Positions 5,394-24,183 of a stretch of DNA of 62,372 nt are shown here, in pieces (position 1 is the first letter of the stretch; each line of letters starts with the position of its first letter). The DNA comes from Candidatus Gastranaerophilales bacterium. Lineage in GTDB: Bacteria > Cyanobacteriota > Vampirovibrionia > Gastranaerophilales > Gastranaerophilaceae. The stretch lies in assembly GCA_944327225.1 (NCBI GenBank), contig CALVGZ010000011.1:1-62372 (forward strand), read 5' to 3'. Position numbers and translations under genes: made by a program. The notes under the pieces are model-generated. The model was not told the DNA's origin and searched no databases. It saw only the letters and a program-made list of their open reading frames with translations.

Positions 5394-8135
5394 TTAATTC
5401 ATATTCCAATTTGGCTGTCTTCTATATAAAGTAATTAATTCTCCTGTCGGTGCAAAAATTGTTTCAATAATATCGGAATCTAATTTATGATTTTCTATTA
5501 TTCTTTGGCTATAGTTACTGCCTTTTACTAATAACGGTTTTTTGTTATAAATTGTATAAAAGATATTTTTGAGTTTTTCTTTTGTCTCGGGTGTATATAA
5601 TTCAGAAATATCATTTGCATTGCTAAGTACAAATCTGTCAATTGCTCTAAGTTTTGAGTGTAAAGTTAAATTTATAAATTTATCTTCATTTGGATATTTT
5701 AACCAATCATCAGAATTAACAAACTCAATAAATTCTTTAGGTAAAATTTCAATCAATGCTCTTATATATAAATAATCAGATATATTATCATCCAAACCAA
5801 GACTTTTTTTGTCTATTTTTAATAATCTTATAATATTTTGATAAGACTCACTTGATTTATTCATTTTAAATACAATTTCTTCAGCAATATTTTTTGCACT
5901 GTATTCTACCTTTTCATTAATTTTTGAACCAGGTAAAGCACTTATAAAATTTGAATCTTCTGAAACTCCATGGATTCCATTAATTATCTCAATAAGAGTA
6001 TTATTTAAAATCATAGGCGAGCTTAGAAGTTTTTTCATATCAACACAACAAATGTTATGAGCATTAATCTTTAAAGGCAATTCCAAGCTTATAATCTTTG
6101 CTTTAAGCATACCAAGCAATTTGTTGCATGCTTCAAAATCAACATCTTCGGGTAAATTTTTTAAATAAGAAATTATTTTATCATTTGACTCAGCAGTTTC
6201 TGAGTATTCTCTTATAAAATTACCCAAAGCAGTCAAAGACGGAACCTTTTTATCGGCAATTAAGGTTAAAATTTCTTTTCTTTTTTTGTCGTCTTTAATT
6301 TTAGATAAAAATTCATCAAGTTTTTCTTTGGATTTTACTAAAAACCCTGAATTTAAATAAAAATCTAATCTATCTTTTGTTAAATCAGGTAAATTTTCAT
6401 CATAAATTGTTTTTATAATTTCGAGACAATTTTTTCTGTATTTAACGTTTTCAGGACTATTATCCAAACTAATTTTATTTTCATTAATAAATCTGATTGC
6501 TTGGTTATGCTCAAAATAGAGCATAAAACTTTTAATCAAATCAATTTTTTCTTGATATAAAGAATCATTTTGAATATCAAACTTTGATATATTTTTTAAT
6601 ATTTCTTTTATGGAAGTTTTTTCATCTTGAAATAAATTATAATATTTTTTGTAAATATTTAGTGCGGTTTCGCCGGCAAAATAGGTCCCTTCAGGACTAT
6701 TTATAAATTCTTCGATTTCATCTTTTACTCTGTAAAACTTGTCTTTTTCAGATAATAAAATATCGATGGGTGGGTTTTTTTGTTTTTTTGATAAATCAAA
6801 AATATTAAAAGAACTGCAATAATTAAAAAGCTCAATAAAGCTTTTGAATTTATCTTTAGTTAAAGCTATTTCTTTACTTCGAGTAAATTCATTATATAGT
6901 CGCAAAAAACCATTAGAACTTGTTATTTTAAATTTATTAACTAATTGTATAATAAGTTTTAAATAGTCTGTATTTCCTTCTTCTTCATCAAAAACCGCAT
7001 TTATCACATCACTAAATTTAATATAAAAATTCGATGCTTCTTTTTCGCCAATTCCTTCAATATCCATAATTAAGCCGGATATAAAATTTTTATTTATGAT
7101 TTGTTTTAAAATATCCGAATCATTACCTTCTATAAAAGACTTACTGCTTATTTTATTAAAATCGTCTACAGAAACATTATTTTCATATAATAATCTGTAA
7201 AATTTTATTTTAGATTCTATTCCGGCAAAGCCTTTATTATCCATTCCAAATAATTGCAATGATTTTAATTTTATATTTTTTTGACTAATTGCAATATCTA
7301 TAATTTCTGATAGACCGTCAAGGTTTTCTCCGTTATTTTTGTCATAAAAATAATCAACTATTTCAGGATTTAGAGAATATACTTTTTTTGCGTCCTTTTT
7401 TGAATTTTTTTCATTTTGTTTTAATATATCAGCTAAAAAAGCTATTTTTCTTTCATAAGTACTTCTTAAATAATCAATAGCTTCAATTTTACTTAAAATA
7501 TCTTCAAAGTCATTAAATTTAGGTTTTAAATGGTCAAATTTTTCTTCAAATTCTGATGATTGATTAACTCCTAATTCTTTCAAAAAATCTATATAGCGAT
7601 TTAATTCCTCAAAATCAGGCTTTTCTTTTTGTGCCTCTCGGTTATATAAATATAATAGTATATCTGGAAATTCTGCTAAGTCTGTTTTATTTGTCAATTT
7701 TCCGTATATTTTTACAGCCTGCACTTTTTGATTGGAAAAAATTTCTCTTGTTTGGGATGTTTTATTACATAATTTTGCAAAATTAGATAATTGACCAATT
7801 GTATATATTTCTGATTCATAAAATATTGGTAATACTACTTCAATTTTTGGCATTCGAGAAAAAACATCCGAAATTTTGGCATTTAAAAGATAGCTTTGCA
7901 TAAATTTATTTGTTTTATCTGATAAAACATTAATAAATGCGGTAATTGTTGTTTCTTTATAAAAATCTTCATTTAAATGTAAAGAAATTTTATTATCAAA
8001 TGTCCCTTTAAAAGCAATTTTTTCTTTTTTTTGAAAAACATCTTTTTTTAATGTTAAACTTGAATTATTTTCAACTTTTTTTTGTTTTAAATTTTTATTG
8101 AAAAAAAAATTATTTTCAAAATTATAAATCTTCAT
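5394..8135 (-). CDS. Large helical protein of unknown function with F-x-G leader
   Basis: A 913-residue protein with no recognised domain. It has no signal peptide and no membrane segment. It is Lys/Glu/Asn/Ile-rich and appears helical almost throughout. The N-terminus is MKIYNF, a low-complexity Asn/Lys stretch, then IAFKG at residues 40-44, matching the element in other proteins of the window. The extreme C-terminus (PTGELITLYRRQPNW) has a more globular composition. The start follows AGGGTGA on the minus strand, a motif resembling that before the GH13 gene. It lies 68 bp downstream of the Pmp-like gene's start and may be transcribed separately. Confidence 0.6.
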   Translation of the reverse strand: MKIYNFENNFFFNKNLKQKKVENNSSLTLKKDVFQKKEKIAFKGTFDNKISLHLNEDFYKETTITAFINVLSDKTNKFMQSYLLNAKISDVFSRMPKIEVVLPIFYESEIYTIGQLSNFAKLCNKTSQTREIFSNQKVQAVKIYGKLTNKTDLAEFPDILLYLYNREAQKEKPDFEELNRYIDFLKELGVNQSSEFEEKFDHLKPKFNDFEDILSKIEAIDYLRSTYERKIAFLADILKQNEKNSKKDAKKVYSLNPEIVDYFYDKNNGENLDGLSEIIDIAISQKNIKLKSLQLFGMDNKGFAGIESKIKFYRLLYENNVSVDDFNKISSKSFIEGNDSDILKQIINKNFISGLIMDIEGIGEKEASNFYIKFSDVINAVFDEEEGNTDYLKLIIQLVNKFKITSSNGFLRLYNEFTRSKEIALTKDKFKSFIELFNYCSSFNIFDLSKKQKNPPIDILLSEKDKFYRVKDEIEEFINSPEGTYFAGETALNIYKKYYNLFQDEKTSIKEILKNISKFDIQNDSLYQEKIDLIKSFMLYFEHNQAIRFINENKISLDNSPENVKYRKNCLEIIKTIYDENLPDLTKDRLDFYLNSGFLVKSKEKLDEFLSKIKDDKKRKEILTLIADKKVPSLTALGNFIREYSETAESNDKIISYLKNLPEDVDFEACNKLLGMLKAKIISLELPLKINAHNICCVDMKKLLSSPMILNNTLIEIINGIHGVSEDSNFISALPGSKINEKVEYSAKNIAEEIVFKMNKSSESYQNIIRLLKIDKKSLGLDDNISDYLYIRALIEILPKEFIEFVNSDDWLKYPNEDKFINLTLHSKLRAIDRFVLSNANDISELYTPETKEKLKNIFYTIYNKKPLLVKGSNYSQRIIENHKLDSDIIETIFAPTGELITLYRRQPNWNMN

Positions 8136-8288: not shown

Positions 8289-10382
8289 ATGGAAAATATT
8301 TTTGCAAAAATTCAATATTTTATAGCTAACAAAATTTCTTACTCGGATTTAATAAAAAAAATCGAAGAACTTGAAACAAATGAAAATTCAGATGAAGAAA
8401 AAAGTCAAGAGTCTTCAGTATTTAATAATCTTTCGAAAGATGATATTCTTGAAATATACAATAAATTTGATATAGATGGTGATGGAAAAGTTGAAGAATC
8501 TGAATTTTCAGCTTATCAAGAAAATTACTTAAAAGATGTAAATAATATTTTTGGATATATGACAGAAAATATGTCAAAAGAAGATTTTGACAAAATATTT
8601 GATAAGTATCAAAGCTTATCAAATTTTGATACTGAAATGATTGATCAAATTTTCGATTGTGCAGATACAGATTCTGACGGCAAAATAACAGACGATGAAT
8701 TAAATGAATTTGAAAAAAAGTTTATTGGGCTTGAGGAAGCAGAGGAAATTGAGGAAGCAGAAGAAATTGAGGAAGCAGAAGAAATTGAAGAAGCAGAGGA
8801 AACACCAGTAAGCACAACAGGCGGATCAAGAGGAAGTGTCGGAGGATATTCAGGAGCGGGAAACAATGGAAGTATAGATTCGTCAAACGATTCAGGCACT
8901 AAAGATTATTCCGAAATGAGTTTAGATGAACTGGAAAGTGCAAAATCAACAGCAGAAGGAGAATTAAATACAGCACAAAGCGATCTTGATGCTGCTCAAC
9001 AAGAAGAAGCAACGGCACAAAGTGCTTATGACCTTGCAGAAGGCGATTTTGAAAATAAATACAATTCTATGCAAGAATTAAATCAACAAATGCAAGAAGC
9101 TATTGCAGAGGATGAAAATATCACTCAAGAGCAAAAAGAAGCTCTTTCTTCAATAGAAGAAAATTTAAATATTAACCAAGAAGCAATTAATACAACAAAA
9201 AATTCAATTTCGGAAAAAGAAACTGAAATATCGGGCAAAGAAACTGAAATATCGGGCAAAGAAACTGAAATATCGGGCAAAGAAAGTGAAATAAGTGCCA
9301 AACAAGCTACAATTTCAGAATTATACAGTCAGTTAAAAAATGTTTCTTCGGGCAGTACAGAAGAAGAACGCCAAGCGGCCATACAAAAAAGACAAGAATT
9401 AAAAAGTCAAATAGCTTCGGCAGAAGAAGAATTACAAACGCTTGAAAGTCAAAAAACTCAACTTAAAGAAGAAAAAAGCAATTTAGAAATTGAGAAACAA
9501 GCACTCGAAGCAGAGCTTTCGGAATTGGAAACACAAAAATCCCAACTAGAAAGTGAGCAAACAGAAATCTTAAATCAAAAAACCGATTTACTTGCAGAAA
9601 TTTCAAAAAATGCAAGTGAAAGTACAAAAGCCGTTATTGAACAATATCAACAGGCACAAAATGACTACGAAACGGCAAAAACAGAATTGAAAACAGTTAA
9701 AGAAACACTAAGTGAGGCCAAAGAAAAAACAACCGAAGCAGAAAGTGCCTACGAAACTAAAAAAGCGGAACTTGATGAAATTAATAGTTTAATAGCTGCA
9801 AAACAAGCTGAAAAAGCCTCTAAAATTTCAGATGAAGGCTCAGTAGAAATACCTGATTTTATATCCGATTCCGATAAAATAAAAATTCAACAATTACACC
9901 CTGAAATGCAGGAGGTAATGGTTGAATTCTTTGAAAAGGCAAAAGAAGCAGGACTTGAATTTACTCTTGAATGTGGCGGGCAAGTAAGAACTTTAAGTTA
10001 CCAAGAAGAATTGCACAACAGTAATTCATCAAGATACGGAACACCAAATCCATACGGAACATCATCTTTCCATCTATTAGGACTTGCTGTTGACATTACA
10101 CCCAAAGGATGTTCTTATGAACAATTAGCAACTATCGGTAAATCTGTAGGTCTGAGCTGGGGTGGAGATTGGCAAGGATATAAAGAAGGATGGCACTTCC
10201 AATTAGATAGCGGAGTTAAAGCTTTACTAAATGATTCATCTTTAAGCGATTCACAAAAAGAAGAAGAAATAGCAGAAAGATACCCCTGTATTAAAACACT
10301 ATACACAAGCGAAAACAGTTCTTATGAGTCTACTGATTTCTACACCGCTAAAGAACTTGCAAGTTTAGGCTATAGTGTTTAA
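8289..10382 (+). CDS. EF-hand / coiled-coil protein with C-terminal M15 (VanY-type) peptidase domain
   Basis: A 697-residue modular protein. Two canonical EF-hand calcium loops lie at 61-72 (DIDGDGKVEESE) and 126-137 (DTDSDGKITDDE). An acidic EEAEEI repeat follows, then a Gly/Ser linker (~175-200), a long coiled coil (~205-540) containing four KETEISG heptads, and a C-terminal M15-type DD- or LD-carboxypeptidase domain. The zinc site is complete: H595 and D602 in SFHLLGLAVDI, and H636 in GWHFQ, with WGGDW between them. That domain normally cleaves peptidoglycan peptides. No Sec signal is present although the substrate would be outside the cytoplasm, so export by another route is implied. GGAACGGAA precedes the ATG. 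The architecture parallels the protein at 12937-15084. Confidence 0.85.
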   Translation: MENIFAKIQYFIANKISYSDLIKKIEELETNENSDEEKSQESSVFNNLSKDDILEIYNKFDIDGDGKVEESEFSAYQENYLKDVNNIFGYMTENMSKEDFDKIFDKYQSLSNFDTEMIDQIFDCADTDSDGKITDDELNEFEKKFIGLEEAEEIEEAEEIEEAEEIEEAEETPVSTTGGSRGSVGGYSGAGNNGSIDSSNDSGTKDYSEMSLDELESAKSTAEGELNTAQSDLDAAQQEEATAQSAYDLAEGDFENKYNSMQELNQQMQEAIAEDENITQEQKEALSSIEENLNINQEAINTTKNSISEKETEISGKETEISGKETEISGKESEISAKQATISELYSQLKNVSSGSTEEERQAAIQKRQELKSQIASAEEELQTLESQKTQLKEEKSNLEIEKQALEAELSELETQKSQLESEQTEILNQKTDLLAEISKNASESTKAVIEQYQQAQNDYETAKTELKTVKETLSEAKEKTTEAESAYETKKAELDEINSLIAAKQAEKASKISDEGSVEIPDFISDSDKIKIQQLHPEMQEVMVEFFEKAKEAGLEFTLECGGQVRTLSYQEELHNSNSSRYGTPNPYGTSSFHLLGLAVDITPKGCSYEQLATIGKSVGLSWGGDWQGYKEGWHFQLDSGVKALLNDSSLSDSQKEEEIAERYPCIKTLYTSENSSYESTDFYTAKELASLGYSV
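8733..8804 (+). repeat. 18-bp in-frame tandem repeat (EEAEEI)
   Basis: Four near-identical 18-bp units such as GAGGAAGCAGAAGAAATT encode the acidic hexapeptide EEAEEI. Units differ only by GAA/GAG codon changes, which suggests recent slippage expansion. It joins the EF-hand part to the Gly-rich linker. Confidence 0.8.
9216..9299 (+). repeat. 21-bp in-frame tandem repeat (KETEISG)
   Basis: Three identical 21-bp units and a fourth degenerate one encode the heptad KETEISG within the coiled coil. One unit equals one heptad, so copy-number change would lengthen the coil without breaking register. Confidence 0.85.
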
Positions 10383-10387
10383 TAAAT

Positions 10388-12793
10388 TCAGTCAATCTTT
10401 TTAAATATAGCAGTAGTTTTTGCAGATAAATTTATGGGATGTTTTCTTTTTCCGTCACTCTTTATAATTTTTTCATTTATATTACCGTTGCCATTATATT
10501 TAATATTATCTGTATTCAATATTTCAATCCAATCACCTTTTGGAAATTCTATGTAATAGCTTTCAGAATCGTGACTTGGGTAACTTTGGTTTCCAAAATT
10601 AGTAATAGAATATATACTGTTGTCATTTTTATCATCTCTTGCATGAAAAGCGATTACTTGAGAATAAGGATGTTTTACAGAATCTTCAATAACAAAATGT
10701 CCATCAGATAATGCTGGATTGTGAATATTTATAGAATTTAAACATCTTATAAGTTCTCTAAAAGCACTCATTTTTGATTTTGCTTTCAATGAATAATCCA
10801 TTCCGAACAATTTAGACTGTTTTAGTGCATTTATATCGGTTTTATAGCCCTTTTCAATGTATAAATAGGGTTCATCTTTGATTAAATCTAATTGTCTAAA
10901 AAATTTAAACGGTGTTATATCACAATTTTCATCACCTTGGAAAACCATTTTAGGACCAGGAGTTGCAAAGACTCTTGCTATTGCCATTTTATTAATGTCA
11001 AAACTTTTATCAAACATTGCCCTTACTTTATCATAAGTTATCCCTAAATCCTTGCTTATTCCAAGAGGAATAAGTATCTCGCGTTCGAAATCTTCTTGCA
11101 AACTTATTTTTTCTTCAAAAGTACTAGATTCCGTTGGAGCAAACTTATCCAACATTCCCTTCTGTAGCATCGTTACAAGTTCATTTGAAGCAGCCTCCGC
11201 CTTTTGATTGCAAACTTTATTATAAGCATCATCAATCGAAAGCGACTCTTTTTTTTGCAGTTCTTGGACCCTTTTTAAATCTTCTTTATTTAAAATAATT
11301 CCTTCTTTTAAATGCAACATTGGACTAATAAGCTTTGAAATCAAACGAGTTCCGTCCATATTTCCAATTTCATCATGACTCATTAAATATTTAACATTAT
11401 CCTGTGCACAATAGCTTGCTTTCTCAATTGCAAATAAATCAACACTTCCAAATATAGTATCTTTTAATTTATGAAAAAAATTAAAATCCCATTCGCTATC
11501 ATAACCAAGCCTGCTTAAAACAGTATCATTATTTGAAATAGCAGTTATTACTTGTTCGTGTTCTTTTTCGGTTCCACCTTTTGCAATTTCCTTGTCAGTT
11601 AAAGGGCTTGTTACTCTTTTATCATGAATTTCATTTGGATTATACCAAAAATGATCTCCGCTAACACTTATTGAATCTCTTGCGTCTTCTGCTATTAAAA
11701 AAGCATCAGGCTTATGATAATTTATCTCTGCAGCAATTTGTTTCATAGTATAATCAGATGACATAAATTTTGTCATATCAAGTCTTAAACCATCACAATG
11801 ATAATTATCCAACCAATTTATAGCAGCATTTACGATATAGTCTCTCACATAACGTGAATTTTCTTTTTCATAATTGAAAGATAAACCAAAACAATTCCCG
11901 CAATCAATATATGGTCCGGTTTTATCTAACTGTTGCCCATCTATAGATATATGGTTGGGGACCATATCCATAATAACGTTTAAGCCAATACTATGAGCAT
12001 AGTCAATTAAAGATTTTAACTGATCCGCTCCACCCAAATGTTCTGACGGAGCAAATTTATCTACCCCATCATATCCCCAATTGAAAGAATATGTATTTTC
12101 AACCGGCATAATTTCAATTGCATTAAAACCTAATGAAGGTAAATTTTTAATTGCTTCTTTAGCATCTTCAAAAGTTCCGCCTTGAGTTAATGAAACTGTA
12201 TTAAATTCATATATTCTGGCAGAATCTATTGATGTTAAACCATTTTTTGAATCAGCCAATCTTGATATTCTTCTTTTATCATTTTTAAACCAATTATCAT
12301 CCTTCCATTTATATAAAGAATGATCATATATAACGGATTCTCCGATTAATTTTTTTTGCCTGAAGGAATATGGGTCTTTTACATTTTCTTTAATTGTTTT
12401 TCCGTCCTCATCAACTCTTTCTATTGTATAAAAATAAGAGTCGCCATGTTGAACTTCATTTGAAGGAATCTTTTGCGGGGTTTCAAAAATTCCATTTTCT
12501 TTTTTTTCGAGTTTATATTGAAGAATAGTTCCGTTTGGTTTTTTTACATTAACCGTAACTTTTTTAGTGTCAGGGTAGGAAAAAATTTTAAAAGAAACAT
12601 CTTTAGTTTCAGGATCAACAACAGCCCCCCAACTTTTATGTTCTTTCCAGCTTCTTTTAAAAGAAATATTATAAGAAGAATTTATGTTTATTTTCTCAGA
12701 TAAATTGCCTTTTGTTTCTTTTATTAAAAAAGTTTTATATTTTTTTATACTACAATCAACACTTGGCTTATAAGCAATACTTTGTATCCTCAA
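10388..12793 (-). CDS. GH13 alpha-amylase-family enzyme (branching-enzyme/trehalohydrolase-like) with F-x-G leader
   Basis: An 801-residue alpha-glucan enzyme. After an Asn/Lys-rich leader with ISFKR at 43-47, residues ~55-150 look like a CBM48-type beta-sandwich, as in branching enzymes and maltooligosyl-trehalose trehalohydrolases. The GH13 barrel follows, with all four signature regions: DMVPNH (276-281), GLRLDM with nucleophile D339, FLIAED with acid/base E369, and SHDE with H473/D474. The catalytic set is therefore complete. Exact specificity (branching, debranching or hydrolysis) cannot be read from the sequence. The start is TTG, preceded by AGGGGTG. No signal peptide is present. A second alpha-glucan enzyme, MalQ, lies at 38776-40692. 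Confidence 0.82.
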   Translation of the reverse strand: MRIQSIAYKPSVDCSIKKYKTFLIKETKGNLSEKININSSYNISFKRSWKEHKSWGAVVDPETKDVSFKIFSYPDTKKVTVNVKKPNGTILQYKLEKKENGIFETPQKIPSNEVQHGDSYFYTIERVDEDGKTIKENVKDPYSFRQKKLIGESVIYDHSLYKWKDDNWFKNDKRRISRLADSKNGLTSIDSARIYEFNTVSLTQGGTFEDAKEAIKNLPSLGFNAIEIMPVENTYSFNWGYDGVDKFAPSEHLGGADQLKSLIDYAHSIGLNVIMDMVPNHISIDGQQLDKTGPYIDCGNCFGLSFNYEKENSRYVRDYIVNAAINWLDNYHCDGLRLDMTKFMSSDYTMKQIAAEINYHKPDAFLIAEDARDSISVSGDHFWYNPNEIHDKRVTSPLTDKEIAKGGTEKEHEQVITAISNNDTVLSRLGYDSEWDFNFFHKLKDTIFGSVDLFAIEKASYCAQDNVKYLMSHDEIGNMDGTRLISKLISPMLHLKEGIILNKEDLKRVQELQKKESLSIDDAYNKVCNQKAEAASNELVTMLQKGMLDKFAPTESSTFEEKISLQEDFEREILIPLGISKDLGITYDKVRAMFDKSFDINKMAIARVFATPGPKMVFQGDENCDITPFKFFRQLDLIKDEPYLYIEKGYKTDINALKQSKLFGMDYSLKAKSKMSAFRELIRCLNSINIHNPALSDGHFVIEDSVKHPYSQVIAFHARDDKNDNSIYSITNFGNQSYPSHDSESYYIEFPKGDWIEILNTDNIKYNGNGNINEKIIKSDGKRKHPINLSAKTTAIFKKID

Positions 12794-12936
12794 ACTACAC
12801 CCCTAAACACAACTTTTAAACATATAACATCATTATCAGAAAACCTTAAATAAGGTATTCGATTTAACTTTTATATAATACAATACAATTGATATATTTG
12901 TAAATTTGTTAATTTTTGTATAATACAATCAAAAAG

Positions 12937-15084
12937 TTATTGCCTTACATATAACCCAATAGTACGTTCTTCATTTTGTGTATCTTCTTGTGTTTGCTCA
13001 GTTAAAATGTCATCTAAATTCTTAATCGAACCGTCTTTAACATCAACAACCAACAAATCACTTGTTGATATTGATTCTGCACCTTGTCTTACACCTACAA
13101 CAGAAACATAAAATTCATCATCATTATTGCCAACAATGTGCATTAATGAAGGTATGCCGGCACTTAATTGTTCTTGTACCCTTCCAAGCAATTCACTTTC
13201 ATCACTATATTCAAATTCCTGATACTCTGAAGCATCTGTACTTTCATCTGCTTCAGTTTCTTCATCTTCTTCATCTTCCGATTCGGTTTGAGTGCCTGTT
13301 AATTTATCATTAAAAGCAAAAGCTTTAGTTAAAGGATCATCTTGATCGGTTTCTTCACCTTCTTGTTCAGCTTCAGAAGCTAGACCATCAAGTTCATCAG
13401 CACCCATGATTGTATCATAAGTATCTTCACCTAATGTGTATGAATTTTCTTCTTTATCATTTTCTTCATCGGAAGATTCAACATCATTTTCTAAAACAGC
13501 ATTAACTAAATTATCTATTTCACCTTGTATTTCTTTAATTTCTCCTTGAATTTCGGAAATTTCAGTTTCTAATGTTCCCCTTAAGGTATCTTGCTCGGTG
13601 ATATATGCCTCTTTAGCATCTTCATAAGCACTCTTTGCTTCTTGTAACTCAGTATTTTCTATTTCTGCAATTTTATCTTCTATATCGGTCATTTTTTCAT
13701 TAAATGTATCCAATTCTTCCTGTAACCCCAAAAGTTCACCTTGTAAAGTACTGAGATTTTCTTGCTCTTCTTGGAGCTGAGTTTCTAAATCACTTTTTTG
13801 ACTGTTTAATTCTTCCATAGAACTTTCATAATCCGCAATCAAATCAGATATTGCCGCTTTCTCATCTTCATCTGTCTCGGAATCAGGAAGATTTTTATAA
13901 TAAGTAAGTGCTTTTTGACAAGAAGCCAAATTACTATCTATAGAAGTTATATTCATTTCAATATCTGCAATTTGCTGTTCTGAATCCATTATTGAAATTT
14001 CTTTTTCAGCAATTGCACTTTCTTTTTCTTCTATGGCTGTTTTTGTTTCGACTAATTGTTCGGATAATTCAGAATCAATAGTCTCTAAGAGTTCGTTATA
14101 TTTTTCAAAAGCAGCATCTTCCGCAGTTTTTAAATCAGCAAGTTCAGGACTTGAACCATCGATTACAGCATTTAATTCACCTTGTTTTGTGGAAAGTTCT
14201 GTTTGTTTTTCTGTTAATTTTTGTTTTAATTCGGCAAGCTCAGCGTTTTCCTCAGAATCATCATTTGTTTCCGGAACATTATTTTGACTGCCAACATTTC
14301 CTGTATATCCGGTACCACCAGCACCACCAGCACCTGACGAAGCTTGAGTTTCTGAAACTTTATCACTTTTATCATCGGTATCTATACCGTTTTTTTCACG
14401 TAAAGCATCAATAGATTTATTTGTTTCAAGCTGTTTGTCGTCTAAAGCAATTCTTTTTTCCTGCATATCTTTAAGAGCTTCTTTTGTTTCATCAGAAGCA
14501 CTTTCTAAGATTTTTTCTTCTATTTCATCTCGTTTTTGAAGTAATTCTTCTCTTTCTTTTAAATATTTTTCCAATTGTTCTTTTTCTTCATCAGTTAAAT
14601 CTGATTTTTCATTTAGTGCATTTATTAATTCATAATTTTCTTGCAAATCTTCTAATAGTTGAGATCTATCAGATAATAATTGACTATCAACTGAATTATC
14701 GGACATTAATAAAAATTCAAATTTATTATTGGATTCCTGATATTTTGACATATTTTCATCTTGAGTATTTAAATCCTCGAATATATCTTCTTTATCAAAT
14801 TCAAAATCATCAGAAAAACCATCAAAATCTTCAAAAGAAACTCCTGAAAATTCCGAATAGCTTTCAAGTTTTTGAATAAGATTTAACAACTCCTCGTCAG
14901 ATAGTTCACCATTATTATCTTTATCACACACCGAAAACAAATTTGATAAAATTTTTTCGCCTTTTTCTTCCGAGAAAATGCTTTTTTCCTCTTGAATATC
15001 TTCATCTTCAGATTCTCTTATATCATTTAAAATATAAGAGTTTGCATAATTAGAAATTAATGAAATTAAAGCATCAAGTTGCAT
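12937..15084 (-). CDS. EF-hand / coiled-coil protein of unknown function
   Basis: A 715-residue acidic protein without a signal peptide. One clear EF-hand loop lies at residues 54-65 (DKDNNGELSDEE). A long coiled coil occupies ~130-230 and ~275-560, interrupted by a Gly-rich linker (GAGGAGGTGYTGNVG). A very acidic stretch follows, then ~80 residues of more globular sequence (SLMHIVGNNDDEFYVSVVGV) at the C-terminus that I do not recognise. The module order (helical start, EF-hand, Gly linker, coiled coil, C-terminal domain) mirrors the M15 peptidase protein at 8289-10382, so the two may share an export or assembly route. AAGGAG precedes the ATG. It lies upstream of the GH13 gene and 97 bp downstream of the calpain gene's stop. 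Confidence 0.7.
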   Translation of the reverse strand: MQLDALISLISNYANSYILNDIRESEDEDIQEEKSIFSEEKGEKILSNLFSVCDKDNNGELSDEELLNLIQKLESYSEFSGVSFEDFDGFSDDFEFDKEDIFEDLNTQDENMSKYQESNNKFEFLLMSDNSVDSQLLSDRSQLLEDLQENYELINALNEKSDLTDEEKEQLEKYLKEREELLQKRDEIEEKILESASDETKEALKDMQEKRIALDDKQLETNKSIDALREKNGIDTDDKSDKVSETQASSGAGGAGGTGYTGNVGSQNNVPETNDDSEENAELAELKQKLTEKQTELSTKQGELNAVIDGSSPELADLKTAEDAAFEKYNELLETIDSELSEQLVETKTAIEEKESAIAEKEISIMDSEQQIADIEMNITSIDSNLASCQKALTYYKNLPDSETDEDEKAAISDLIADYESSMEELNSQKSDLETQLQEEQENLSTLQGELLGLQEELDTFNEKMTDIEDKIAEIENTELQEAKSAYEDAKEAYITEQDTLRGTLETEISEIQGEIKEIQGEIDNLVNAVLENDVESSDEENDKEENSYTLGEDTYDTIMGADELDGLASEAEQEGEETDQDDPLTKAFAFNDKLTGTQTESEDEEDEETEADESTDASEYQEFEYSDESELLGRVQEQLSAGIPSLMHIVGNNDDEFYVSVVGVRQGAESISTSDLLVVDVKDGSIKNLDDILTEQTQEDTQNEERTIGLYVRQ

Positions 15085-15180
15085 CCTTTGTCTCCTTATA
15101 TAAGTTTATATACGGCACTAATGCAATATTCTTGAGAAAAATAATATTTATATTAATTTTTGTTAAGCATTTTTTAATAA

Positions 15181-17133
15181 TTAAAATTCATAAAAGCTTA
15201 TTTGTGATGATTTTTCTTTCAATTCACTTCGACTGAAAGTATACATCATTGTAGTGTCCCATGGGTTGACCAATGTAATAAATTGTCCGTTCACATCTAA
15301 AACACTCCATGCATGTCCAAGACTATTTGCCATAACTATTTCTTTTCCTGAACTATCTGTTGCTATAATTTTTGAATTTTCATCTTCAGGTATAAAAGAT
15401 ACTATAGCAGCTACACCATTGGGATTTTCATCAATATAGTTAAAAATATTGTCAAAATTACTATCTAAATCGTACGAATTTTGCTTTATAGCTCCTGTTT
15501 CTTTTCCTGTTAAGGCTACAGTAAATTTTTCAAACGTACCGCCATTTAGCGGGTCATAATTTTTACCGGCCGCTTGTAATTCTTCTTGTTTTTGTTGTTC
15601 TGTTTCTGATAAATATTTTTCAAAAGCTACTTCCATTAAAATAACATCATCATCTCCGTATGAATATCTGGAATCACTTTTTGCCTTTTCTAATTCTTCA
15701 TTAGTGACTTTGTATTTTTTACCACCCAATTTAACATTGTAGTCATCCGAAAACCATATTTTGCTAATAGCCTTTTTAATTGCTTTTCTTCCTTCTTTTG
15801 TTATTGAAAAAGCATATAAACCGGATAACAGCCAGCAATCTCCACTTAATCCCTGACGAAAAGGTTCATCTATCTTTTCATTTATGGAAATATCTTGATC
15901 TAGTTCCAATCTATCTTTACCTGAAATAACTTTCCCTTCTTTATCATATAGTACAACGGAACCGTCATTATATCTTTTTTCTAGGCCTTCATCTGTAAAT
16001 CTGAATTCTGCAAATTCACTCTGATCTATTACTCTAAACAAAGGAGAATCTTTTCTATTTTCATTCATATACTTATATAAATCAGAGGCTTTAATATAAC
16101 CCTCACTATCCATAGTTATGGAAACTTCTTGACCATTTATAATTTCGGTTACAATAAGATTACCTTCGCTATCAAGAGTCATTTTTCCGTCATTAGTATA
16201 CCCGAAATCACCGTTCATAACACAACTTTGAACTTCTGAACTTAGATTTACTCTATGTATATAATCTACGGATAAATTAACAAAACCGGTTATTACATCT
16301 TCACCATCATAATATATAATTGTATCTGCAATGTTATCACTATTGGAATCTGTTTGACTTTCGGTTAAAACACCTCGTTCATCATAATTATATATGGTAA
16401 CCATACTTGTAGTCTGCCCGTTTTCATCTGTTTTTGTTTCTCTTCTTGCAAGAGGATAGGAGCTGTCTTCAAAATATTTCTGCTCTACTGAATATGTAAT
16501 ACCGTCCAATTTAATAAACATTGAAGTAAAATTACCATTTTCATCCGTTTCCACACCCCAATCATTTTTAGAAACTCCCATATCATGAGCATATTCGGCA
16601 AATTTTACGTCAGCAACGTCTTCGCAGTAATGCTCAAAATCATCAACCGAGTTTCCATACTTATCTTCACTTTTATAACAACCGGGATTATAGTTATAGT
16701 ATTGTAATACATCGAAAACTTTTGAAAGATTCTCATAATCTTCTATACTTTTATAATGATTAAAAATCATTGCTAAAAATTCATACTTATTATTTTTGTC
16801 AATTAATAAGTCATTCAATTTACTAAATTGTTCATAATATACCGGACCAACTGTAGAAGCATATCCAGGCAAATCGGGACGTTCGCCCGGATAATAAAGT
16901 TTCATAGTTTCTTCAAAATCTTTTGTGGTTAAGTATGAATTAATATCCCTTGCTCTTTGTGTTGTTGCACTTTGCATTTCTACACTATACATAAAAGGTT
17001 CATAAGTATCTGTTTCAGAACTAAAAACATTATCAATCACATCATTTGAACTGTCATATTGAGCTGACTTATCATTAACAGATAATGATTTAGTCCTTCC
17101 AAACAAAAATTCTAAATTCGTATCAAAAGACAT
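15181..17133 (-). CDS. Calpain-like (C2 family) cysteine protease
   Basis: A 650-residue protein whose last ~225 residues form a papain-fold calpain-type protease core. The catalytic Cys433 lies in QGLSGDCWLLS, with Q427 as oxyanion residue, His607 in LGHAWSVLDV and Asn623 in LVNPWD, so the triad is complete. The ~420 residues before it contain hydrophilic, Asp/Asn-rich strands with repeated D-x-(N/D)-x-(N/D)G turns (TDENGN, TDENGQ, DSEGN), perhaps calcium-binding. No signal peptide or membrane segment is present. Bacterial calpains are rare outside a few lineages. Substrate and cell location are unknown; its neighbours suggest a group of calcium-linked proteins sharing a non-Sec export route. 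Confidence 0.83.
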   Translation of the reverse strand: MSFDTNLEFLFGRTKSLSVNDKSAQYDSSNDVIDNVFSSETDTYEPFMYSVEMQSATTQRARDINSYLTTKDFEETMKLYYPGERPDLPGYASTVGPVYYEQFSKLNDLLIDKNNKYEFLAMIFNHYKSIEDYENLSKVFDVLQYYNYNPGCYKSEDKYGNSVDDFEHYCEDVADVKFAEYAHDMGVSKNDWGVETDENGNFTSMFIKLDGITYSVEQKYFEDSSYPLARRETKTDENGQTTSMVTIYNYDERGVLTESQTDSNSDNIADTIIYYDGEDVITGFVNLSVDYIHRVNLSSEVQSCVMNGDFGYTNDGKMTLDSEGNLIVTEIINGQEVSITMDSEGYIKASDLYKYMNENRKDSPLFRVIDQSEFAEFRFTDEGLEKRYNDGSVVLYDKEGKVISGKDRLELDQDISINEKIDEPFRQGLSGDCWLLSGLYAFSITKEGRKAIKKAISKIWFSDDYNVKLGGKKYKVTNEELEKAKSDSRYSYGDDDVILMEVAFEKYLSETEQQKQEELQAAGKNYDPLNGGTFEKFTVALTGKETGAIKQNSYDLDSNFDNIFNYIDENPNGVAAIVSFIPEDENSKIIATDSSGKEIVMANSLGHAWSVLDVNGQFITLVNPWDTTMMYTFSRSELKEKSSQISFYEF

Positions 17134-18623: not shown

Positions 18624-20234
18624 TTACTTGTTATATAAAATTTTAAATTCAAAACCATATTGAAAAGCCGACGGAATTTGAATACAAATATGCTCATATT
18701 CGCCTAAAATCGTATTAATACAATGAAAAGTACCGGGTTCTACAATAAGCATTTCACCTTCTTTTAAATTTTTATGTGTTAATTTACCATTTTGCATTAA
18801 TTCTAAAGTAGCTTCACCGTTTGTGACTAAATAAATTTCTTTTTGTTTTTTGTTTTCTTCATTTATATGTTTGTGTAAAGCTTCTGTTGAATGTATTTCC
18901 GACATTTTCACTGGTTCTTTTTTATTTGATTGAACAACAGAAACACCCGTTGATAAAGTCTCATAATCTTTATAAGCAAGCATAATAGAATTTGTAAGCC
19001 AACTTGTTCTTTCTGAATTCCAACAATTTATTTTATCATTCAAATTATATATAGATAATTCATCCGATATAAATTTTAAACCGGTTACATCAAATCCGCA
19101 TAAATTTTCTTTCTTCCACATGCCAATAATTAAATTTATTTCTTCTTCCAAAAAACCGTTTTCAAAAAGCATTTTTTTAAAAATTTCTTCGTTGGGATAT
19201 AACTTTCGCCAATATAAATTTTCCGATTTGAATTTTTTATTATCAAATAAAATTCTTTTTTGTCTCATTTTTTCAATAAGCAAGCAATTAAAATCACCAA
19301 TAAGATTTTTTCTTACTGATCTGCTATCCATTTTAACTTGTCTTGCTTGCATATAAAAAGGAAGCAAAGTATTAATTTCTTCTTGGGAAAAATCTAAATC
19401 AAGCATTTTTTTCTTAAAAAATTCTTCATTGCAACCAAAATTGAATTTTATGAAACCATTTTCTTCTTGATTTATGACTTTTTTTTGAAATAATTTATCG
19501 AGTAAAGTCTTTAAATATTCAATTATTTTTTTATCTTCGGTTGACAACAAAGCTCTTGCGGAATATAAAGCATTAATTAAGTTATTTTGTTGAGCCCATT
19601 TATTTATAGACATTTTGTTTAAGAAAAATTCATTCCTAAATTTTGAAGGAAGTAAAATATCACTTGAAAATCCACCGTTATAATGATGAGAATTGTTGCT
19701 TACTGCTTCTGAATATTTATTTCTAATATTATCATCTGGACAATCTTTCGAATATTTTTGATACCAATCAAATTCCTTTTTTGAGCTTATTACCAAAGGA
19801 TAACCCTTAGAAATTGTAATTTTTGCTTTTGTGCCTTTTTTTATACAAACAGCTGAATTTTCGGATATTTTTATAATTTTATCTTTATATTGAACAAAAC
19901 CCTCTGCTCCTTTTGGAAAAATAATTTGTGTATTAAGTTTAAACTCATCGTTTTTTTCAAGAAACGATATGGCATCTATTCCATATATTAAACTTGTTGA
20001 CGTCTCATCACCTAAAAAATAAGATTTATCAGAAGATTTTCTAAGCTCACTTATTTGGCCTGAAGAAGAAATAACTTCTGCTTTAATAATCTTCGGACTA
20101 CGCCCTGCAAAAAATATCGGAGCATTATTATTTTTACGTACGTCAAAATGAAAGGGGTTATTTGTATTTTTACTTATGGTATTTCCTTTTTTAAAAATTA
20201 TTTTAGTTGTATTATTTATAGAATTTATTTTCAT
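18624..20234 (-). CDS. Bicupin-like protein with F-x-G leader
   Basis: A 536-residue protein of unknown function. The N-terminus is MKINSINN, with IFFAG at 40-44. Residues ~75-160 look like a degenerate cupin barrel (GFVQYKDKIIKISENSAVCI, then a KGT turn) without metal ligands. The middle (~190-400) is helical. Residues ~440-525 are a canonical cupin with a complete metal site: HKH, then E in KEIYLVTNG, then EPGTFHCIN. The gene starts 44 bp after the phosphonoacetaldehyde reductase stop on the same strand, so it could be cotranscribed. Hydroxyethylphosphonate dioxygenase and methylphosphonate synthase are cupin enzymes acting on that pathway's product, but I see no specific match to them. A sugar-binding or isomerase-like cupin is an equal alternative. 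Confidence 0.6.
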   Translation of the reverse strand: MKINSINNTTKIIFKKGNTISKNTNNPFHFDVRKNNNAPIFFAGRSPKIIKAEVISSSGQISELRKSSDKSYFLGDETSTSLIYGIDAISFLEKNDEFKLNTQIIFPKGAEGFVQYKDKIIKISENSAVCIKKGTKAKITISKGYPLVISSKKEFDWYQKYSKDCPDDNIRNKYSEAVSNNSHHYNGGFSSDILLPSKFRNEFFLNKMSINKWAQQNNLINALYSARALLSTEDKKIIEYLKTLLDKLFQKKVINQEENGFIKFNFGCNEEFFKKKMLDLDFSQEEINTLLPFYMQARQVKMDSRSVRKNLIGDFNCLLIEKMRQKRILFDNKKFKSENLYWRKLYPNEEIFKKMLFENGFLEEEINLIIGMWKKENLCGFDVTGLKFISDELSIYNLNDKINCWNSERTSWLTNSIMLAYKDYETLSTGVSVVQSNKKEPVKMSEIHSTEALHKHINEENKKQKEIYLVTNGEATLELMQNGKLTHKNLKEGEMLIVEPGTFHCINTILGEYEHICIQIPSAFQYGFEFKILYNK

Positions 20235-20278: not shown

Positions 20279-21271
20279 TCAAAATTTTTTTGAAATAAAT
20301 TTTCTCGGATTATTTTTCAATCTTTCAGAATCAATATAATCTATTTCATAATTTATTTGCTTTATTCCGATTTGTTCAAATAAATTTGAGAAATATTCAA
20401 AAGCATTAGAAATACCGATTAAAGAATATATTTCTTTCATTCTTTCTTTAACAAAATCAACCCCTCTTGGATCATTTAAAGTTTCAGTATCAATTTTTTT
20501 GTTGTACTCCATTAATCTTGCAATATTCAATGCAACGGCATGTCCATGAGGTAAGCCATATTTTGTTGTTATTGCATAAGACATAGCATGTGCTATTGTT
20601 GTTCTTGAAATATTAATGGCTCTGCCTGCTAAATTTGACGCCAGCATCATATTCTTGGAATATTCTTCATCGGATGAATTGACGTATTTTACAATATTAT
20701 CCCTGCATAATTTTATTGCTTCAATAGCGTATTGTCTGCTTTCTTCGGTTGATTTTGTTGCAAAATAAGACTCAATTGCTTGTGAATACGCGTCAAGTGC
20801 AGTTGTTGCTTTTAAATATTTTGGATTATTTTCAACAAATTGACTGTCAGCAATTGAAATATCAGGTAAAATCAAGGGACTATCCAAAGATTTTTTAATA
20901 CCGTTTTCATAATAAACGGCAAATTGAGTAACTTCGGAACCTGTGCCTGATGTTGTCGGGATTGCGACAAGTTTTAAATTTAATTTATTTTTAAATTTAA
21001 AAATTTTTGCAAAATCTATAACGCTTCCGCCGCCTATTGCAATAATTATATCGAAATTTAAATTATTATTAAACAACAATATGGCCTTTTCAATATCTTC
21101 AATTTTAGGATTTGTTAAAAAATCGTTGTAAAAAGTTGGGTTTTTAAGATATTTTTCAACAATAGGTTTAATTTTTTCAAAAGATTTTTTTCCGCAAAAA
21201 ACAAGAGGGTTTTTAAAATTAATTTTCAAAAGCTCGCAAATTGCACCTTTATATACAAAATTATTTTTCAT
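20279..21271 (-). CDS. Phosphonoacetaldehyde reductase (iron-containing alcohol dehydrogenase family)
   Basis: A 330-residue dehydrogenase. GGGSVIDFAK and TTSGTGSEVT form the NAD(P)-binding and pyrophosphate loops of the group III alcohol dehydrogenases. The metal region reads ALDAYSQAIESY: the usual second ligand His of D-x3-H is replaced by Gln, as I recall for PhpC-type phosphonoacetaldehyde reductases. The remaining His residues are in IAHAMSY and LPHGHAVAL. The expected reaction is phosphonoacetaldehyde to 2-hydroxyethylphosphonate in the cytoplasm. The start overlaps the end of the decarboxylase gene by 11 bp, with GGAG inside that gene. Placement as third gene after pepM and the decarboxylase supports the call more than sequence alone. 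Confidence 0.82.
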   Translation of the reverse strand: MKNNFVYKGAICELLKINFKNPLVFCGKKSFEKIKPIVEKYLKNPTFYNDFLTNPKIEDIEKAILLFNNNLNFDIIIAIGGGSVIDFAKIFKFKNKLNLKLVAIPTTSGTGSEVTQFAVYYENGIKKSLDSPLILPDISIADSQFVENNPKYLKATTALDAYSQAIESYFATKSTEESRQYAIEAIKLCRDNIVKYVNSSDEEYSKNMMLASNLAGRAINISRTTIAHAMSYAITTKYGLPHGHAVALNIARLMEYNKKIDTETLNDPRGVDFVKERMKEIYSLIGISNAFEYFSNLFEQIGIKQINYEIDYIDSERLKNNPRKFISKKF

Positions 21272-22358
21272 TTAATTTCTCCATAAAAGCTTTTTTGTTT
21301 TCTGTTGGAGATTTTTCAGGCCTTGGAAGATTTTTGGCGTCATCAGGTCTTATTTTAATTTCCAAAAAAGAAAGTTCTTTGTTTTTAATAAATTCCGGCA
21401 AAATTTTTTCAAGTTCGAGTTGAGTTTTTGTTGTATATATCTTTTTATAACCTGCACCTTTAAAAATTTCACAAAAATCCATTATTTCTGCTGATGTAGG
21501 TTGAGATCCGACTGAATTATGAACAAAATTATTTAATAAAATATGTTTAAAATTGCAGGGAGATTTAACCGCTATTGTACCAATGGCACCAAGGTGCATT
21601 AACAAAGCACCGTCACCATCAAGACAAAATATTGTTTTATCCTTCTTATTTAAAGCTACAGATAAAGCAATGGAGCTGGCATGTCCCATAGAACCGACAG
21701 TTAAAAAATTTCTTGAATTATCTTTTGAATTTTTATAAAGTTCTCTTGAAATATAACCTGTAGTTGAAACAAAAAAAGAATCACGAGGTGCCAATTTTAA
21801 TATTGTATTTATTGCCATTTCTCTGGTTAATTCAAATTCTTGAAAAATATTTTTATTTATTATTTCTTTTTCAAAAGCACCTTTTTTAACCACAAAAGCA
21901 AAAGATTTTTTTGTTTTGTTCATATATTCTTTTGCTGTTAAAAGCTGTTTTTTTACAATGTTTATATCATTTGATAAAATTTCATTTTTTAAGTCAATAC
22001 AATTTAATAATTCTCTTGTTAAAAGCCCCTGTTTAAAATGCTGCGGCTCGTCCTTTATATCGGGTTCGCCTCTCCAGCCAATAATGAATAATAAAGGTAT
22101 TTCATAAATATCTGCTAAAGATAAAATTGGATTAATTGCATTTCCAAGTCCCGAATTTTGCATATAAATAACAGGAATTTTACCTGTTGAAAGATAATGC
22201 CCGCAACCCATTGCAACTGCATTTCCTTCGTTTGCGGTTATTGTATTTTCCATATTTAAAATCTCAGAACAAAAAGATTTTAAAAGACTGTCGGGGACTC
22301 CAAAAAATGTTTTAAAATTTTGTTCTTTTAGGGCATTAACGAAGTCTTTTGCAAGCAT
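21261..22358 (-). CDS. ppd: Phosphonopyruvate decarboxylase
   Basis: A 365-residue thiamine-diphosphate enzyme that converts phosphonopyruvate to phosphonoacetaldehyde, making phosphonate synthesis irreversible. Glu44 in TANEGNAVAMG is the cofactor-activating glutamate. The ThDP/Mg motif runs from GDG (248-250) to NN (276-277), followed by FVHNSVGSQPT, which is characteristic of this enzyme. The length matches the single-chain family (~370-380). It starts one base after the pepM stop codon and overlaps the reductase by 11 bp, so the three genes form one tight operon. Confidence 0.92.
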   Translation of the reverse strand: MLAKDFVNALKEQNFKTFFGVPDSLLKSFCSEILNMENTITANEGNAVAMGCGHYLSTGKIPVIYMQNSGLGNAINPILSLADIYEIPLLFIIGWRGEPDIKDEPQHFKQGLLTRELLNCIDLKNEILSNDINIVKKQLLTAKEYMNKTKKSFAFVVKKGAFEKEIINKNIFQEFELTREMAINTILKLAPRDSFFVSTTGYISRELYKNSKDNSRNFLTVGSMGHASSIALSVALNKKDKTIFCLDGDGALLMHLGAIGTIAVKSPCNFKHILLNNFVHNSVGSQPTSAEIMDFCEIFKGAGYKKIYTTKTQLELEKILPEFIKNKELSFLEIKIRPDDAKNLPRPEKSPTENKKAFMEKLNEK

Positions 22359-22359
22359 T

Positions 22360-23679
22360 TTAACGACCTCCGGGAATTAAATTTAAAATGTCATTTATTT
22401 TCATGCAATATTCATCAGATGCCTCTTTACATCTGTGATTTTTTAAAATACTTTTTGCACTATTAACCATCGCAGGCCATGCAGCTCTTAAAAGATGATT
22501 TGCATATATCACAACCTTTATGTCATTTTCAATCAATTCTTCTTCCGTAACCTCGCTATATGAAGAAGGCACAACTATTAGAGGTTTTTTATTTTCCAAA
22601 GTATTATAAATTCTTGCAAATTCCCTTATTTCATCGAAGGTTTTTTGTCTTGAATGTATCATGATACCGTCAGCTCCGGCTTCAAGATATATTTTAGCCC
22701 GATTTATGGCATCATTTATACCTTTTTCTAAAATTAAACTTTCAATTCTTGCTATAATCATAAAATCATCGGTTACTTGAGCTTGTTTTCCGGCTTTAAT
22801 CTTTAAAGCAAAGTCCTCGGGGTTGTCTTGATTTTGTTCAACATCTAAACCAAAGAGAGAATTTTTCTTTAAACCGATTTTATCTTCTATAATTATCGCT
22901 GAAACCCCGAGACGTTCAAGTGTTTTAACCGTAAAAACAAAATGTTCGCAAGGTCCCCCGTTATCTCCATCGTATATTACAGGTTTTGTTGTAACATCTA
23001 AAATGTCGTTTAAAGTAGACATTCTGGATGTTGTATCTAAATAACCTGTATCAGGTTTTCCTTGTGCAGCGGATTGAGTTAAAGACGATAACCAAATGCC
23101 GTCAAATTCAACCTTTCTTCCTTCTTGCTCAACTGAAACATTTTCAACAATTAAACCGCTTAATCCGTTATGAGCTTCTAAAATAGTTACCAATTCTTTA
23201 GAATTTAAAAGACGTTTAAATCTTTTTCCTCTAATTTCCGGAGTTGTTCCCACTTCTTTTAAAATCTTATTAAGTTTAGTTGAAGAAATACCTTCTGTAT
23301 ATGGTATATCAATTACTTTTCCACCCCATTCTTTCATAACTTCAATTATTTTTTGTCTGGTTTGAGCTTGAACTCCAGTTTTCCAATCGTCACCATGAAG
23401 CACATAATCAGGTTTAATTTTTAAAATATTTGGGACGTAATCAAGAGTTTCTTGTGCTATAACCTCGCTAACTCCCTTAACATTTTCAACAACTACTTTT
23501 CTCTGTTCAAATGTCATATAAGGAAGTCTTTTATAGCTTGCAATGGCTTTATCAGTTAAAAGTCCCACAATAATTTTGCCGCCACCTTCATTATTTAAAA
23601 TTTTTCTTGCCTCATTTATTATGTTTAAATGTCCGGGGTGTAATAAATCCGCACTCATTCCTATATAAATTTTTTTCAT
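22360..23679 (-). CDS. pepM: Phosphoenolpyruvate phosphomutase fused to an N-terminal cytidylyltransferase
   Basis: A 439-residue two-domain enzyme. Residues 1-~145 form an HxGH-class cytidylyltransferase ([10 protein letters not shown] with HPGH at 14-17; GISSTKLNK at 130-138). Residues ~160-439 form a PEP mutase of the isocitrate-lyase superfamily with the diagnostic EDK-x5-NS motif (EDK 265-267, NS 273-274) and the Mg-binding DGDNGG. The mutase makes the C-P bond (PEP to phosphonopyruvate). The fused domain probably activates the pathway's end product with CTP. The frame is open to 23805, but ATG 23679 with GGAG upstream matches the family start MKKIYIGMS. It heads the three-gene phosphonate operon. 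Confidence 0.93.
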
Positions 23680-23711
23680 TTTAACTCCGAAATTAAATAG
23701 TTTATTTTTAA

Positions 23712-23740
23712 ATAATACCTTATTTATGTTGCAATAACAA
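23712..23740 (-). promoter_or_regulatory. Sigma-70-type promoter of the phosphonate operon
   Basis: On the minus strand TTGTTA (23735-23740) and TATTAT (23712-23717) are separated by 17 bp. The inferred leader to the pepM ATG is about 25 nt and includes GGAG. Confidence 0.5.
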
Positions 23741-23746
23741 TAATTA

Positions 23747-23752
23747 TATAGT
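23747..23752 (+). promoter_or_regulatory. Possible -10 of the divergent glycan operon
   Basis: TATAGT lies 30 bp upstream of the ATG at 23782, leaving a short leader that carries GCGGAG. No convincing -35 was found. It faces away from the pepM promoter in a 102-bp shared intergenic region. Confidence 0.35.
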
Positions 23753-23781
23753 ATCTTTAAAACATTAGCGGAGTTTATTAT

Positions 23782-24183
23782 ATGTCTGAAGATTTTAGAA
23801 CACATTTAGAAAATATCGGATTTGAAAAATATCTGAATAAATTAAAGAAAAAATTAAAAAATAAAACTTCAATAATATACGGGGCGGGAAGTTTTTTTAA
23901 ATATATAAATGAAAACTATGATTTATCAGATTTAAATATAATCGGAATTTCCGATATGAAATTTGACGAAAATAATGAAGGAAACGATTTTTTAGGATAT
24001 AAAATGATACCTAAAGATAAAATCGTAAATTATAAGCCTGATTATGTGCTTGTTACAACTTTAAAATATATAAGTATTGTTGAAGATTTTGAAATAAATA
24101 TTTTAAATAAAACTAAAATTAAGGTTTTACCATTGGCAAAACTCCCTATCTTGCAATTAATTAAAGATATCTGGATGAATTAA
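23782..24183 (+). CDS. Small Rossmann-like nucleotide-binding protein
   Basis: A 133-residue protein with a dinucleotide- or nucleotide-sugar-binding fold start, [13 protein letters not shown] (residues ~33-45), followed by an alternating beta/alpha pattern ([18 protein letters not shown]). Stand-alone versions of this domain often sit beside polysaccharide-modifying genes or at the N-terminus of capsule enzymes. GGAG precedes the ATG. Its stop overlaps the next start as TAATG, so it is translationally coupled to the transferase. It runs divergently from pepM. The ligand is unknown. Confidence 0.6.

Follow-up and report, generated by a model that had tools for sequence, protein, structure and literature searches.

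The window analysed here, a stretch of 62,372 nucleotides, belongs as contig C11 to a Candidatus Gastranaerophilales genome (G000) of 1.73 Mb that is 99.8% complete. Between positions 8289 and 17133 it carries the genes of an M15 peptidase protein, of an EF-hand/coiled-coil protein (hereafter the coil protein) and of a calpain-like cysteine protease, which a preliminary description had presented as one calcium-linked set. The three open reading frames (ORFs) are real, and their order is kept in synteny in a close Candidatus Gastranaerophilales relative sharing the locus (G003, CALUWM010000001.1), whose orthologues are 71% (M15 protein), 52% (coil protein) and 73% (calpain-like protein) identical. 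Comparison with 39 genomes of relatives and with a wider class set of 194 genomes places the first two proteins in an apparently undescribed, lineage-specific family of modular proteins in these gut relatives of cyanobacteria.

Three genes and their products

The features of the three genes are the following (window coordinates, strand, description and basis).

8289..10382, + strand: M15 protein, 697 aa, with EF-hand module, coiled coil and M15 peptidase (G003 orthologue)
8469..8504, + strand: EF-hand loop 1, DIDGDGKVEESE, residues 61-72 (Pfam EF-hand_7, 37 bits; kept in the orthologue)
8664..8699, + strand: EF-hand loop 2, DTDSDGKITDDE, residues 126-137 (Pfam, above cut-off)
8805..8906, + strand: Gly/Ser-rich linker, residues 173-206 (sequence; low-confidence and non-helical in the AF2 model)
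8907..9833, + strand: coiled-coil region of four helices, residues 207-515 (shares homology with the other members' coils)
9876..10208, + strand: M15 peptidase domain of the phage L-Ala-D-Glu endopeptidase type (H595, D602, H636, WGGDW)
12937..15084, - strand: coil protein, 715 aa, its papain-like C-terminal domain inactivated (coil homology, ORF)
14890..14925, - strand: EF-hand loop, DKDNNGELSDEE, residues 54-65 (Pfam 20.2 bits, below cut-off alone)
14260..14346, - strand: Gly-rich linker, about residues 247-275 (sequence)
13450..14259, - strand: coiled coil, about residues 276-545 (coil homology)
12940..13443, - strand: pseudo-C39-like domain (homology to the intact papain-like domains of relatives)
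15181..17133, - strand: calpain-like (C2) cysteine peptidase, 650 aa (same strand as the coil gene, 96 bp upstream of it)
15214..15891, - strand: calpain-like catalytic domain (triad C433 at 15835-15837, H607 at 15313-15315, N623 at 15265-15267)

In the M15 protein both EF-hands exceed the Pfam cut-off, and the peptidase domain combines a curated match (Peptidase_M15_4, 31.1 bits for a Pfam cut-off of 25) with the zinc ligands H595, D602 and H636 in an SxHxxGxAxD...WH arrangement, as required of an M15 member. According to sequence comparison its nearest solved relatives are phage L-Ala-D-Glu endopeptidases (PDB 8q2g and 2vo9); it also matches PHROG endolysins, and the viral collection searched contained no relative of it. 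The preliminary description goes too far in denying an M15 domain any purpose in the cytoplasm, for phage endolysins wait precisely there. A conserved Trp close to the active site is important in the M15_C subfamily, and EndoT5, a member of this subfamily, is activated by calcium (PMC10487532). The AlphaFold models were each built from two sequences; that of the M15 protein is confident for the four-helix coil alone and unreliable for the M15 domain, and a Foldseek search with it gave no match below E 0.001.

The C-terminal domain of the coil protein aligns with an intact homologue in G013 (31% identity over 178 aa, E 1e-23), and the intact relatives of this domain match Peptidase_C39_2. The window protein and its G003 orthologue have each lost the catalytic Cys and His, which are intact in the relatives, and the domain does not qualify as a C39 peptidase. 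Because of this loss the coil protein may be a binding or regulatory partner.

In the third protein the triad C433/H607/N623 is kept in the G003 orthologue and stands in the QGxxGDCWLL/HAxSV/NPW context that characterises the C2 triad. The Peptidase_C2 score is 15.8 bits for a Pfam cut-off of 23.8, no PDB sequence match was obtained, and the AlphaFold model (pLDDT 38) contains no usable catalytic domain; for these reasons the protein is filed, from its sequence motifs, as calpain-like and not as a calpain. The protease beside the coil gene was rightly recognised in the preliminary description, and its triad is apparently complete, but the “DENG” turns noted there are not EF-hands, and no EF-hand was found in the window calpain-like protein. 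It shares the QGxxGDCWLL, HAxSV and NPWD motifs and the triad with the calpain (C2) family, from which it differs by its sub-threshold Pfam score and by lacking a C2L or a penta-EF-hand domain. A pairing of the calpain-like protease with the coil protein would resemble, in outline, that of a catalytic and an EF-hand subunit in eukaryotic calpain.

A modular family with exchangeable C-terminal domains

The preliminary description had reported a common domain order in the M15 and coil proteins. This order is confirmed, their coils being homologous, and belongs to an architecture far larger than had been noticed. Sixty-three proteins could be aligned. In these a start helix and a SIFxYSxEFK motif precede an EF-hand, from which a linker leads to a homologous coiled coil and finally to a C-terminal domain that is exchangeable, the N-terminal module running roughly as LKxxFxxYL, SIFxYSxEFKxFL, an acidic spacer and the EF-hand. 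The coils of both window proteins align with a third protein of the same genome, which ends in an L,D-transpeptidase domain (YkuD_2, 55.8 bits); between this protein and the M15 protein the coils are 34% identical over about 290-300 residues and score 127 bits, whereas the best of 50 shuffles reached 67. Chance similarity between coiled coils is ruled out by these shuffles and by the common motifs of the N-terminal module, which lie outside the coil. The same architecture with other C-terminal domains, which it had been proposed to look for in the genome, was found: together with two further copies, one with a CHAP end and one with a CHAP-like end, the genome holds five members, whose ends are all different.

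The EF-hand is the most conserved element: across the 63 members just two alignment columns reach 90% conservation or more, loop positions 1 and 12, which in the M15 protein fall in loop 2. As one of the two search profiles (A2, the N-terminal module) contains the EF-hand, the loop count was repeated on members picked by the coil profile (A1) alone, and a canonical loop was present in 45 of these 59 proteins vs 9 of 446 other ORFs, with 0.55 per shuffled set of 70. In the window, residues 61-72 and 126-137 of the M15 protein and 54-65 of the coil protein follow the pattern D-x-[DNS]-x-[DNSG]-G-x-hydrophobic-x-x-x-E and are predicted calcium sites. These EF-hands give the two proteins the putative calcium link of the preliminary description, the calpain-like protease being attached to it by neighbourhood and by one fusion alone. 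About 30 calpain-like relatives occur in 18 of the 39 genomes, and twice, independently, such a gene adjoins one of the family (G000/G003 and G012/G014; 0.2 pairs expected), a suggestive but not strong link. More telling is the fusion, a protein of 1786 residues in G214 (L146:2183-7543), with the N-terminal family module (E 1e-33) followed by a C-terminal domain with GDCYL...HAY...NPWD, for which hhalign gives an alignment to the calpain-like proteins of the local set (97.7%, E 2e-12); it was detected by this profile alignment but missed by a nine-sequence calpain hidden Markov model, and Pfam does not call the domain. A survey of 2015 found an EF-hand in no bacterial calpain homologue (PMC4631099), a generalisation to which the predicted fusion would be an exception.

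With both profiles the family was detected in 25 of the 39 relatives. Class-wide it is found at E<=1e-8 in 10 of 194 genomes, all belonging to one family of genomes; in the smaller set, members were also present in two genomes of another family. At E<=1e-4 Pfam assigns CHAP (13), SLT (4), GH108 (3), YkuD_2 (2), glucosaminidase (2) and M15 (2) ends among the 63 members, so that about 26 are confirmed in this way, to which inspection by eye and weaker matches add CHAP-like, lysozyme-like, C39-like papain and alpha/beta-hydrolase ends, so that predicted wall-degrading domains predominate. Neither the carrier nor its N-terminal module corresponds to a named family in Pfam, NCBIfam, PHROGs or PADLOC, the PADLOC matches being to the coil only. 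Literature searches retrieved no description of the family, most subscription journals lying outside their coverage.

Polymorphic toxins and modular effector systems offer the closest comparison as to organisation, with a constant leader part, swapped C-terminal enzymes among which wall hydrolases are numerous, and a lineage-specific, patchy distribution. In the present family an exchangeable domain likewise follows a constant region, the swapping of enzymes being seen and their toxicity only presumed. It differs by its EF-hand and coiled-coil carrier, by the lack of a recurrent immunity gene beside the putative toxin gene (43 loci), and by the lack of a known trafficking domain in Pfam and NCBIfam scans and of a Sec-like N-terminus. 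The family would work like a polymorphic effector system, yet it is not filed as a member because these two defining elements, immunity gene and known trafficking domain, are missing.

Outside the family, the genome encodes other leaderless EF-hand proteins of 1306, 953 and 178 residues (L003/L033:4723-8643, L034:4385-7246 and L001/L035:6319-6855). In the window, a single operon for the three genes was rejected, an unrelated GH13 gene (10388-12793, - strand) standing between the M15 and coil genes, which lie on opposite strands. The GH13 protein is similar to TreZ and branching enzymes, below all their cut-offs, and has a leader-like N-terminal extension. Further on, positions 20279-23805 (- strand) hold a cytidylyltransferase/PEP-mutase fusion and phosphonopyruvate decarboxylase-like and alcohol dehydrogenase-like genes, a row which we take to be phosphonate biosynthesis-like.

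Export signals and a second type III apparatus

The lack of a Sec signal in the three proteins, stated in the preliminary description, is borne out by their N-termini, where the maximum hydropathy over 12 residues within the first 50 is 0.46-1.18 vs 2.88-3.38 in four exported proteins of the window. A hydrophobic N-terminus is also missing in nearly all family members, none of which shows a clear Sec signal. A signal peptide hidden by a wrongly placed start was discarded, in-frame stops being close upstream. Among the possible non-Sec routes, a type IV secretion system was rejected on the absence of VirB4 from all 39 genomes, and contractile injection because a contractile sheath was found in 0 of the 24 in-genus genomes, although the VipB-type sheath of the type VI and the type IX secretion systems were not searched for. 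Published gut genomes of the relatives lack a type I secretion system (T1SS) (PMC3787301).

Essentially every relative encodes two types of full-length FlhA/SctV and two copies each of FlhB/SctU and FliF/SctJ. G009 (97% complete) and G036 have neither flagellin nor the flagellar FliF and keep the second-type FliF and FlhA; G009 keeps the second FlhB too, without the flagellar copies, and contains two family members. As the second SctJ/FliF and SctV/FlhA, and in G009 also the second SctU/FlhB, are retained without flagellin and flagellar FliF, which is expected of a non-flagellar type III secretion system (T3SS), we regard the second apparatus, on gene content, as independent of the flagellum. 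Since G009 has two family members, the flagellum is not required to keep the family either, which weakens the flagellar T3SS as the sole route. In the window's own genome, the second FlhA and FliF are accompanied by FliH-like and FliE-like genes and by a leaderless SLT gene; the apparatus as a whole, including the second FlhB, occupies G000:C8 25.2-31.8 kb (L050:6666-13263) and G000:C19:33287-34312 (L088:5147-6322). The second FlhA scores below both the NCBIfam FlhA and SctV cut-offs. Most Gastranaerophilales genomes known to Soo et al. carried just a subset of flagellar genes (PMC4040986), of which this apparatus may be a part. Taken together, gene content makes the second type III apparatus the best candidate export route for the family.

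Several other observations concern this apparatus and protein N-termini. The leaderless lytic transglycosylase gene within the second T3SS locus lies at L050:12607-13263 (-) and L101:558-1256 (+). Another protein (L051:5693-7204, +), soluble and about 500 residues long, matches just the cytosolic C-terminal half of FlhA; it occurs in essentially all genomes searched and is perhaps a docking platform or a decoy. Proteins starting with MGxSASQARFLxLTARK or similar (L037:5575-6567, L088:3181-4275, L155:1-520), one copy of which adjoins the second FlhB, are possibly type III substrates or parts of the machine. At L035 (G000:C15) three copies of a small protein in one neighbourhood start with MGWVTLTLRKRxLKQSHAxYQLRDLQISREKRQLAR or similar. 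Leaderless proteins that start with M[KR]I, followed within 70 residues by a short F-x-G motif, number 14 in the sampled ORFs (4.9 expected). Several family genes have such a neighbour, and two of the genes lie in the window at 5394-8135 (-) and 18624-20234 (-); this start could be another targeting signal. The window also has a FliD-like flagellar cap gene (28141-29982, +), some 11 kb away from the gene of the calpain-like protease, in a genome that has flagellins.

Proposed function and alternative explanations

We tentatively propose, with somewhat less than even confidence, that the family consists of leaderless EF-hand/coiled-coil carriers of swappable enzymes, exported by a non-Sec route, activated by calcium outside and used to attack neighbouring cells. 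The proteins would be made inactive or flexible in the low-calcium cytoplasm and would exit in one step through a non-Sec machine, for which the conserved second type III apparatus is the best candidate. In the millimolar calcium outside, the EF-hand would fold and the carrier stiffen. The coil would serve as a docking rod or a spacer, and the C-terminal enzyme would be the warhead that attacks neighbouring cells at their wall or their surface proteins, mainly at the peptidoglycan. The calpain-like protease would be a partner or an alternative cargo. An export that bypasses the periplasm, together with a calcium-dependent activity, would explain the missing immunity genes. The more precise version, in which an unrecognised, flagellum-independent T3SS delivers EF-hand carriers of peptidoglycan hydrolases and calpain-like proteases whose activation by extracellular calcium makes immunity genes unnecessary, seems to us rather unlikely as a whole.

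A similar logic is known from RTX proteins, inactive or unfolded inside the cell and folded by calcium outside; the present family has EF-hands in place of RTX nonapeptides, and the T1SS is reported missing in the gut relatives (PMC3787301). In EnvC/PcsB-type proteins, too, a coiled coil controls wall hydrolases or is joined to them (Foldseek reached EnvC at just E 0.15), but these proteins possess Sec signals and act with FtsEX, unlike the signal-less, EF-hand-bearing family.

Several results weigh against the proposed attack by exported carriers. Antibacterial effectors usually have a small immunity gene as neighbour, and none that recurs was seen at the 43 family loci; some members lack any C-terminal enzyme, and that of the window coil protein is dead. 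The family is patchy while the second export apparatus is universal in the relatives searched, and their genes are not linked, except for a weak coil-only match beside the second FlhB in G004.

The main rival is a release by lysis, in which endolysin-like enzymes stay in the cytoplasm until lysis or membrane failure exposes them to calcium and then kill or recycle siblings and neighbours, with no export machine. EndoT5, being a phage endolysin, requires no Sec signal, and it shares with the M15 protein the type of catalytic domain, the WGGDW motif and a plausible calcium control. The phage endopeptidases nearest to the M15 domain, the PHROG endolysin matches of both M15 and CHAP members and the calcium activation of EndoT5, of the same M15_C type (PMC10487532), all fit such a release. 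The calcium site of EndoT5 is, however, a loop inside the peptidase, whereas the family member adds separate N-terminal EF-hands and a 300-residue coil; endolysins have neither a long coiled-coil carrier nor such wide swapping of domains, and some members have non-wall ends (calpain, esterase). Moreover, EndoT5 belongs to a phage and the M15 protein is chromosomal, with no phage gene recognised across the 62 kb window and no relative in the viral collection searched. We consider this release improbable, though a serious competitor.

Own-wall remodelling comes second among the rivals and appears to us slightly less probable still. The exported carriers would act on the producer's peptidoglycan, in recycling or, in the way that FlgJ works for flagella, in making openings for the second T3SS or the flagellum; the leaderless SLT gene inside the second T3SS locus is consistent with it, and the L,D-transpeptidase-ended member suggests wall chemistry. 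Five differently ended copies in one genome, and ends that are rapidly swapped from species to species, speak against a housekeeping role, many genomes with the apparatus have no family member, and the non-wall ends again do not fit. That the proteins are cytoplasmic SMC-like or scaffold proteins, their EF-hands sensing internal calcium and their enzymes having targets other than the wall, is very improbable: the coils do match SMC/Rad50 models weakly, but with scores far under the cut-offs, typical for any coiled coil, and without an ATPase, and the GH108, SLT, CHAP, L,D-transpeptidase and M15 domains all act on peptidoglycan, outside the inner membrane.

If the proteins are exported, they would represent undescribed, calcium-controlled and domain-swapping wall-degrading effectors in a common and mostly uncultured gut lineage, and would offer candidate substrates with which to test the second type III apparatus, whose genes have apparently passed until now for an incomplete flagellar set. 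Calcium gating would then offer these bacteria a way to dispense with immunity genes.

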